Positions 42,225 through 45,549 of a DNA stretch of 64,000 nt are shown here, in pieces. This DNA comes from Chloroflexota bacterium (GTDB lineage Bacteria; Chloroflexota; Dehalococcoidia; Lucifugimonadales; UBA3495), in contig VXTR01000087.1 of assembly GCA_009837355.1 (NCBI GenBank), positions 1 to 64,000 on the forward strand. The letters run 5' to 3'. Below the pieces are notes generated by a model that worked only from the letters and a program-made list of their open reading frames with translations, had not been told where the DNA came from and did no database searches. The position numbers and the translations under genes were made by a program. Position 1 is the stretch's first letter, and each line of letters begins with the position of its first letter.

Positions 42225-43241
<1,017 letters not shown>

Positions 43242-43243
43242 GG

Positions 43244-45475
43244 TTAGTCCTCTTTGTCAGCAACGCCGGCCATGGCGCGGGCGCGTTGACGTATGGTTTC
43301 GGGCAAGGCGTCGCGCTTCCGGCGATGCTTTTGCAGATATTCCAGCAGGTTGTGGGTGGCAGACTCTTTGCAACGTCCGCAGAGGAGTTCTCCGGAGCGG
43401 CAGCGCTTCTGGAGCGCAGCATAGGCGTCCGGCTCGGGGGTGGCGTGAAAGGCGTGGAGGCTGGACACGCTGCAAATGCGAGGGTCGGGGTTGCCGCCTT
43501 TTTCACGCTGCTCGGCCAGGGTCGGACGGCCTCCGGTGTAGGCACGCCCGATGCGCCGGCGGACGTCCTCGGGTGAGTCGTCGTAGGTGATGCGTCCCTG
43601 CGGCACCGCGTTGGTCATAACCTCGATTGCGCTGCCGGTGCCAGGGTCGTCGTAGGTAGTCAGGCCGCGCGTCATGCGCAGGTAGAGGGCGGATGGCTTG
43701 ACCAACCCGAACCGGTCGGCGAGGTTCCGAGCCATGCGCACGTACACGTCCCCGCCGATGCCGTCTATGACCAGGGTGCGGCAGGGGCCGCCGTATTCGG
43801 GCTGCTGGGTGTGGAGTATGTCGGCTAACCGCAACAAGGGAAGGAAGGTATCGGTGGCGCTGCTGCTCAGCCGCAGCCCCAAGGCGGAGTTGAGCACGCT
43901 CAGGGGCGTGGCGCGTCCAAGGGAGAAGGCGGTTTCCACGATGGCGGCGCGGTTGAGCTGGAGGTAGGCGTCGGCGCGTTGCAGGTCAAGGCCGGCGGCG
44001 GCCAAGGCCAGCAGGCGGTCGAGCATATTGCGGAGCGCCTGTTCGCGGGAGTCGGATTCGTCCCGGAAGCCCAGGACTATCTCGGCGCCCAATGAGTGGA
44101 AGTAAATCAGCAGGTTGCCCAGTGTCATGTGACCCAAGTGCATCGGCCCATCCGTTGACATGCCGGCGATAATCTTGCACCGTTCGCCATCCGCCAGCGC
44201 CTGCATGAACAGGTCGGCGTCCCGGCTGCCCACGACTTGACCGGTCAACATATAGGGATGCGGCGCCTCAAACCATTGCACGAATCGCGCTCTTTGCTCC
44301 GGGTACGCCTCGTTGAGGCCGGTAATTCGCAGTTCTTTGACCAGCTCATTTTCGCGAGCCAACGGCTGGTCGCCGGAACGCACGACCAGCGACGGGATGG
44401 CGATGTCGGCCTCCTCCGCACTGGTTTCGGGAGAATCGGCGTCCAGGATCTGCCCGTGCAGTTGGCTCAGCCGCTGGGCAATGTCGTTAAGGGTCCGTTC
44501 CTGGACTTCGCGGGCGTTAGACAGGAGCAGACGGGCGATGTCCTCGGCGGTTTCCGGGGACAGGCCGAGTTGCCGGGCGCGGCGGCGGGCGCTGACAAAC
44601 AGGTTTTCTTCCACCGCCGGTTTGTGGATGGTGTCGCTTTCCAGGTATTTCTCAGCCGCCACGTTGCGGGAGGCTTCGATGCGGGCGTGGGTCAGCTCCA
44701 GGATGCGGTCGTGGCTGCCGGCAATGATGGCCCGCTGGCGTCCGCGGTACTCGGCATAGGGCAAACCGCCGGCAGGCATTTCGGAACGCACCAGGGCCGG
44801 GTCTTCGCCGGCCAGCAGCCGGCTTACGCCCCGCTCTACCTGGGAAACTTCCGACAGGCGACGCCAGTCGGTCGGCACCAGCGACGCCGGCTGTTCGTCC
44901 AGCCAGGCGGCCAACCGGGCCATTCGCCGGTCGTAGATGGCTGCCGCCTCCGGCATAGATATAAGCTCCCGCAGGCCGAGGGCTGGCAACAAGCAATCGC
45001 GGCGATAGGCGGATAGGTATTGCGCCCGCTGGGGGCCGGCCGCCGGCGCATCCCTGAGGTGGTCTGAGTTACGTTCGATGCCGACCAGGTCCAGCTGCGC
45101 GGCGTGCCAAAGCAGCCGGCCGTTGGCGTTGCCGTCGTTTACGTCCAAGTCGGCAGCCCATGCTGCCAACAGGGCGTCGCAGACTGTGGCGACGAACTGC
45201 TCCGGCGCGTCGGCTCCGCGGAGCCAGGCGGCGGCGACGGCGGCGGAATCTCGAGCGCGGTCGGGGGCGTCGGGCCGGCCGGCGAGGTGAAACAGCGCTG
45301 CCGCGTTGACTATTACGGTATCGGCGAGCGGGTAAGACTCGGACAATTCGGCGGCAGTTACGGCGATGCGGCGGGCTGCCGGCAGGCCTGTTGAGTCAGG
45401 ATGGTCGGCGTAAATTGCGGCCAGCGAGACGGCCAAGCGGTGGGCGTCAGGCGTGTAAGACTGGGCGGTAGTCAT
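43244..45475 (-). CDS. Fusion: pseudo-HD domain + AroQ-like domain + Fe-S-type TrpRS-like domain
   Basis: The 743-aa product shows three regions. Residues about 28-135 follow the helical pattern of HD hydrolases, but the metal residues are lost (AAALFHLAG where AALLHDIG is usual). Residues about 245-328 follow the AroQ chorismate-mutase pattern (ILELTHARIEASRNVAAEKY, then HKPAVEENL, then LGLSPETAEDIARLLL), keeping Arg265, Lys276, Glu289 and Gln325 but with Val288 for the key Arg. Residues about 395-720 resemble TrpRS, with H446-L-G-H449 and the region AYTGGRPTLAEQREKGGNPD. Four Cys (668, 692, 699, 702) spaced x23-x6-x2 match the [4Fe-4S] site of Thermotoga TrpRS (x22-x6-x2). The KMSKS position reads VMTNA, so aminoacylation is doubtful. 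The start could be ATG 45475 or GTG 45508. Confidence 0.78.
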   Translation of the reverse strand: MTTAQSYTPDAHRLAVSLAAIYADHPDSTGLPAARRIAVTAAELSESYPLADTVIVNAAALFHLAGRPDAPDRARDSAAVAAAWLRGADAPEQFVATVCDALLAAWAADLDVNDGNANGRLLWHAAQLDLVGIERNSDHLRDAPAAGPQRAQYLSAYRRDCLLPALGLRELISMPEAAAIYDRRMARLAAWLDEQPASLVPTDWRRLSEVSQVERGVSRLLAGEDPALVRSEMPAGGLPYAEYRGRQRAIIAGSHDRILELTHARIEASRNVAAEKYLESDTIHKPAVEENLFVSARRRARQLGLSPETAEDIARLLLSNAREVQERTLNDIAQRLSQLHGQILDADSPETSAEEADIAIPSLVVRSGDQPLARENELVKELRITGLNEAYPEQRARFVQWFEAPHPYMLTGQVVGSRDADLFMQALADGERCKIIAGMSTDGPMHLGHMTLGNLLIYFHSLGAEIVLGFRDESDSREQALRNMLDRLLALAAAGLDLQRADAYLQLNRAAIVETAFSLGRATPLSVLNSALGLRLSSSATDTFLPLLRLADILHTQQPEYGGPCRTLVIDGIGGDVYVRMARNLADRFGLVKPSALYLRMTRGLTTYDDPGTGSAIEVMTNAVPQGRITYDDSPEDVRRRIGRAYTGGRPTLAEQREKGGNPDPRICSVSSLHAFHATPEPDAYAALQKRCRSGELLCGRCKESATHNLLEYLQKHRRKRDALPETIRQRARAMAGVADKED

Positions 45476-45549
45476 TGCGGTCAACCGGGGTTGAACTCGG
45501 ATGACCACATAATACCATCAATCTACCGTCCCAAATCAGCCGGGGCTCA

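Follow-up and report, generated by a model that had tools for sequence, protein, structure and literature searches.

The window, a stretch of 64,000 nucleotides of contig VXTR01000087.1, carries a fusion gene that appears to encode the working chorismate mutase of its genus, fitted with a regulatory domain derived from a retired tryptophanyl-tRNA synthetase (TrpRS) and tuned by tryptophan supply. We assign this reading a probability of about 0.55. The gene, its parts and the neighbouring synthetase gene are located as follows.

43244..45475, minus strand: fusion gene, 743 aa, comprising pseudo-HD, AroQ chorismate mutase and pseudo-TrpRS domains; orthologues in 14/14 genomes of the genus
44867..45460, minus strand: degenerate HD-fold domain, residues ~6-203 (VIA-align to 2pq7, Z 16.8)
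44498..44725, minus strand: AroQ (CM_2) chorismate mutase domain, residues 251-326 (PF01817, 31 bits, cut-off 27)
44366..44476, minus strand: linker from the mutase to the pseudo-TrpRS, residues 334-370, unusually conserved (I.IPS.VVR.GDQPLARE)
43256..44365, minus strand: TrpRS-like domain of archaeal type, residues ~371-740 (3a04, Foldseek E 7e-13; NF008925, E 5e-55)
42225..43241, minus strand: canonical trpS, 338 aa, KMSKS intact (TIGR00233, 307 bits, cut-off 177)

The open reading frame of the fusion starts at the ATG at 45475. A single full-length copy is present in each of the 14 genomes searched of the window's genus, a SAR202 genus, at 68-78% identity. Profile searches of 400 genomes of the phylum recovered two further genomes, both from one genus of another class, that encode a 549-aa mutase plus pseudo-TrpRS core with E values of 1e-70 on the mutase side and 1e-117 on the TrpRS side; the HD part, present in the SAR202 genus, is absent from this second genus. 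The homologue set comprises 16 sequences, MAG-derived at least in part, from two genera (14 and 2). Other genera of the window's family and order yielded only ordinary trpS-like matches and no fusion. Nei-Gojobori dN/dS values of 0.01-0.04 for the mutase (93% identity within the genus), 0.01-0.06 for the linker (93%, taken over residues 334-396, which are 67% identical to the distant genus), 0.06-0.16 for the TrpRS-like domain (72%) and ~0.22 for the HD-like part (62%) indicate purifying selection. By these measures the mutase domain is the most constrained part of the protein and the linker is equally so. Because it is full length in all 14 genus genomes and under purifying selection, the fusion is a real conserved gene, and a chance or mis-called reading frame is ruled out by the conservation across orthologues and the dN/dS values. 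The original prediction had divided the 743-aa product into the same three domains, and Pfam, NCBIfam and structure alignment bear out each assignment. The AF2 model of the fusion, built on shallow alignments, has a mean pLDDT of 63, and the mutase modelled alone reaches 73. A collection-wide scan with two exact peptides of the mutase, which is not sensitive to distant relatives, returned SAR202/Dehalococcoidia MAGs as the owners. An origin from phage was rejected, with no relative in viral contigs by a scan of two short peptides only, as was an origin from plasmids, on which only haloarchaeal TrpRS at 25-36% identity were seen.

Chorismate mutase sends chorismate towards phenylalanine and tyrosine and away from tryptophan. 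Similarity to AroQ had been named beforehand as one of three points on which the prediction could fail; the CM_2 match lies above the Pfam cut-off, so the AroQ reading stands. The same profile scores above its cut-off in the fusion of all 14 genus genomes and reaches 35-36 bits in the two distant homologues. Within each genus genome it does so once, inside the fusion (14/14), with one genome showing a second match below the cut-off, and no match above the cut-off was found in 22 other genomes scanned. A mutase of the unrelated AroH type was found in none of the 14 genus genomes, whereas all 11 that were tested from other genera of the family and order have one. By these searches, the window's genus has no recognised chorismate mutase other than the AroQ domain. 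Prephenate dehydratase and prephenate dehydrogenase were each found in 12 of the 12 genus genomes searched; since both enzymes are kept, prephenate must be made and the pathway needs a mutase. Two prephenate-dehydratase matches occur in the window's genome (C46:208654-209190 and C25:7728-8258) and in one other (G010), and most members of the genus have one.

The active site of the domain is consistent with catalysis. In a gapless register, R248, R265, K276, E289 and Q325 are equivalent to R11, R28, K39, E52 and Q88 of E. coli PheA. These core catalytic residues fall in and just outside the CM_2 match at 251-326, are invariant in 14/14 genus sequences and are kept in both distant homologues. 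The accessory active-site residues Asp48 and Arg51 of the E. coli enzyme are replaced by Lys285 and Val288, which do not vary within the genus and are shared by the distant one. The accessory residues are not defining for the AroQ class; their replacement means that the mutase activity could be weak or differ. Since the five core residues are invariant, no other mutase was recognised and the pathway needs one, the AroQ domain is probably a working mutase, and its conversion of chorismate to prephenate is strongly implied. The proposal that a chorismate-mutase-like fold lies beside a tryptophan-binding fold holds as to the AroQ similarity; a role as a mere sensor probably does not, as the domain is the sole recognised mutase and keeps the core catalytic residues. 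The fusion is probably the working chorismate mutase of the genus rather than merely a sensor, and any regulation probably acts on the AroQ part. In the mutase region the AF2 model has a long helix (241-279), a short helix (285-302) and a second long helix (307-344), and a fold search with the model of the mutase alone placed AroQ entries among the matches, tied with unrelated helical bundles. A profile-profile comparison of the mutase block with E. coli PheA gave no match, the 14 near-identical rows probably providing no profile depth, and a search of the PDB with a profile of that block returned only a Y-family polymerase and other helical chance matches.

The TrpRS-like domain retains the fold of a class I synthetase. 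Pfam places a class I W/Y synthetase domain at residues 431-714 and NCBIfam an archaeal-type TrpRS at 399-728. The best solved relative is the A. pernix TrpRS (3a04), onto which model residues 371-740 align with the TrpRS fold (VIA-align Z 25.1, 332 residues, 4.0 Å). Four sites bear on its function.

44129..44140, minus strand: HIGH position, HLGH, residues 446-449 (HLGY/HLGR/HLGN/HLGQ in homologues)
43607..43621, minus strand: KMSKS position, VMTNA, residues 619-623 (VMTNA/R in 14/14 genus sequences, VMHGA/G in 2/2 distant ones)
43370..43474, minus strand: Cys668-x23-Cys692-x6-Cys699-x2-Cys702, a [4Fe-4S]-type motif (invariant in 14/14, kept in 2/2 distant homologues)
43820..43822, minus strand: Asp552, equivalent of T. 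maritima Asp136 (retained by 12/14 genus sequences and 2/2 distant homologues)

The HIGH signature is not conserved, its last position drifting among H, Y, R, N and Q in the homologues. The predicted loss of KMSKS is confirmed in 16/16 sequences, all of which read VMTN(A/R) or VMHG(A/G) there, and the residue numbers given for HLGH and VMTNA proved exact. An intact KMSKS equivalent, which together with normal tRNA charging would have spoken against the prediction, was not found. The predicted Fe-S-type cysteine set is likewise present in the anticodon-binding region, C668, C692, C699 and C702 matching C-x(21-24)-C-x6-C-x2-C, the [4Fe-4S] motif of some TrpRS described for the T. maritima enzyme (PMC2954223). 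In that enzyme, Asp136 is the Asp of bacterial TrpRS that contacts indole N1 (PMC2954223). The GEDQ motif, which makes tryptophan contacts in bacterial TrpRS, reads GIGG or GLEH/GLER in the fusion homologues; this change to GIGG, together with the loss of Asp552 in 2 of the 14 genus sequences, means that free tryptophan may not be the ligand. Residues 431-520 are the most variable stretch of the domain (59% identity in the genus), and residues 521-600 form an 85%-identical block. The domain is unlikely to be a normal tRNA-charging synthetase. Its ATP chemistry looks lost and its anticodon side and part of its ligand-side architecture look retained, a combination that is the pattern of a sensor.

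Model residues 6-203 adopt an HD fold, aligning to the HD hydrolase 2pq7 over 161 residues at 3.2 Å. A profile of this part had a sole PDB match, to BH2835 (3dto, E 0.042), an HD-domain protein. Among other Chloroflexota it picks up HD proteins of ~215 aa that stand alone, with E values down to 2e-7. Alignment to these relatives shows that the H...HD...D metal ligands are missing, and the prediction of an HD-like N-terminal part that has lost its metal residues is therefore upheld by fold, profile and alignment. No intact relatives of the pseudo-HD domain nearer than these stand-alone proteins were found.

The trpS gene lies downstream of the fusion in every one of the 14 genus genomes and in both distant ones, so the gene order, whose conservation in related genomes had been proposed as a check, holds in 16/16. 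The coupling to trpS originally proposed is universal as to order; the exact 2-nt gap from the fusion stop to the trpS ATG is found only in the window's genome, with gaps of 2-900 bp across the genus. Eight genus loci contain at least one small membrane-protein-like reading frame between the fusion stop and the trpS start; these small hydrophobic frames include one of ~55 aa, beginning MKEFFLNHICTTPPYTV, and a second of ~60 aa. Upstream of the fusion, most loci carry an alpha/beta hydrolase and gyrA. One conserved element precedes the start codon.

45509..45517, minus strand: conserved TGGTATTAT, an extended -10-like box ahead of the fusion start, seen upstream of the gene in all 14 loci

This TGGTAT.AT box stands shortly before the fusion start in 14/14 loci. 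A generic sigma-70 scan of the upstream region called no promoter, so the box stays a conserved-motif reading only. Control at the RNA level by a T-box or leader was considered and rejected, with no Rfam match at 40-47 kb; the box ends ~33 nt before the ATG, too short a distance to accommodate an attenuator. Gene order suggests that the fusion and trpS are co-transcribed.

The second genus provides a view of the history of the pair. Within its class, only 2 of 41 genomes carry the core, and there too trpS directly follows the core gene, although the chromosomal surroundings differ. The trpS of the window's genus is 71% identical to the second-genus trpS and only 41% identical to the trpS of other genera in its own family and order, and in a tree the two cassette trpS groups come together with full support. 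The canonical trpS of the window's genus (42225-43241) is thus foreign to its family; its second-genus counterparts are at L069:322-1335 and in L070. The shared 71% identity and the tree indicate that the fusion and trpS moved or descended together. The pair looks like one travelling cassette that displaced the native trpS and aroH in the SAR202 genus. In the class of the second genus, genomes that carry the fusion and genomes that do not both lack AroH, so the displacement reading rests on the SAR202 genus.

Several known systems resemble parts of this arrangement. HisZ is a catalytically inactive paralogue of HisRS that activates ATP phosphoribosyltransferase, the first enzyme of histidine synthesis, and mediates its inhibition by histidine (PMC10795190). 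The likeness lies in a former aminoacyl-tRNA synthetase that has become the partner of an enzyme making the amino acid it once charged, or acting in that pathway. In contrast, HisZ of the short-form ATP phosphoribosyltransferase is a class II protein, a separate subunit, and acts at the first committed step, whereas the fusion places a class I TrpRS in one chain with an enzyme whose demand for chorismate competes with that of tryptophan synthesis. The fusion domain is class I TrpRS-like and does not descend from the class II HisRS; it would work like HisZ without being a member of that family. The AroQ fusions of E. coli PheA and TyrA and of B. subtilis DAHP synthase share the AroQ module, the CM_2 match and the core catalytic residues, but their partners are enzymes of the same pathway, and here the partner is a tRNA synthetase. 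No description of an AroQ-TrpRS-like architecture was found in the open-access literature searched. In yeast, Trp activates chorismate mutase and Tyr inhibits it (PMC12459221). This control logic of yeast Aro7 is the one proposed for the fusion, although the yeast effector site lies inside the mutase fold and not in a synthetase domain. The archaeal-type A. pernix TrpRS and the Fe-S TrpRS of T. maritima share with the fusion the fold, the anticodon-binding half and C-x(21-24)-C-x6-C-x2-C; the fusion differs from them in the lost KMSKS, the unstable HIGH, the lost GEDQ and the intact trpS adjoining it. The HisRS-like domain of GCN2, a sensor of uncharged tRNA, is similarly a degenerate synthetase domain serving as a sensor fused to an enzyme, but GCN2 is a kinase of eukaryotic translation control and its synthetase domain is of class II.

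By analogy to HisZ, the pseudo-TrpRS is most likely a regulatory domain that sets the mutase according to the supply of tryptophan or tRNA-Trp. In the proposed mechanism, the AroQ domain would convert chorismate to prephenate for phenylalanine and tyrosine. The pseudo-TrpRS, having lost the adenylation machinery and charging no tRNA, would keep its fold, its anticodon-binding half with the Fe-S-type cysteines and, in most members, the Asp that contacts indole, and would sense tryptophan supply as free tryptophan, another aromatic amino acid or uncharged tRNA-Trp. The signal would pass to the mutase through the tightly conserved linker, such that ample tryptophan directs chorismate to phenylalanine and tyrosine and a shortage reserves it for tryptophan. 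Sharing a transcript with trpS would tie the amount of the switch to the tryptophan charging capacity. Both the sensing by the pseudo-TrpRS and the direction of control are inferred with moderate confidence. A more specific and rather doubtful version holds that the pseudo-TrpRS binds uncharged tRNA-Trp, perhaps with an Fe-S cluster at the anticodon, and thereby turns the mutase off, the sensor being carried between bacteria with its own trpS. If true, such a switch would let the demands of translation govern metabolic flux through a protein built into the branch-point enzyme itself.

Other assignments of the two halves have to be weighed against regulation of the mutase by the pseudo-TrpRS. 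The AroQ domain may be the enzyme and the pseudo-TrpRS only a ligand-free, dimer-forming scaffold left by an accidental fusion. In its favour, AroQ mutases are dimers. TrpRS is an obligate dimer as well (PMC2954223), and the tryptophan pocket and ATP motifs of the pseudo-TrpRS are partly eroded. Nevertheless, dN/dS of 0.06-0.16 over the whole domain, the 85% block at 521-600 and four cysteines kept in 16/16 sequences exceed what a scaffold needs, and the pairing with trpS is conserved in two classes, which makes the proposal rather unlikely. Alternatively, the roles may be reversed, with the AroQ domain sensing chorismate or prephenate and the pseudo-TrpRS half regulating the neighbouring TrpRS through mixed dimers or competition for tRNA-Trp. 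This direction is among those that the original prediction suggested, and the adjacency to trpS in 16/16 genomes and the shared origin of the pair speak for it. A sensor, however, need be neither the sole mutase nor keep catalytic residues, and the pathway needs a mutase; moreover, the archaeal-type and bacterial-type TrpRS parts are only ~25% identical, so mixed dimers are unlikely, and we consider such a reversal quite improbable.

It is also conceivable, at long odds, that the TrpRS-like domain has stayed catalytic but changed its reaction, such as to an adenylation or transfer of an aromatic acid that needs no KMSKS. The conserved pocket residues, including the new genus invariants R549 and G574-G575-D576, would suit such an activity. 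Against this, KMSKS, HIGH and GEDQ are all degenerate across the homologues, and no substitute lysine is conserved where KMSKS would lie.

A mutase regulated by its pseudo-TrpRS would be to class I synthetases what HisZ is to class II, with a former charging enzyme controlling the aromatic amino-acid branch point, and the sole-mutase pattern makes its function directly testable. For the SAR202 genus, the locus is an apparent case of a whole cassette, consisting of a charging enzyme and a regulated mutase, replacing two unrelated native genes, trpS and aroH.
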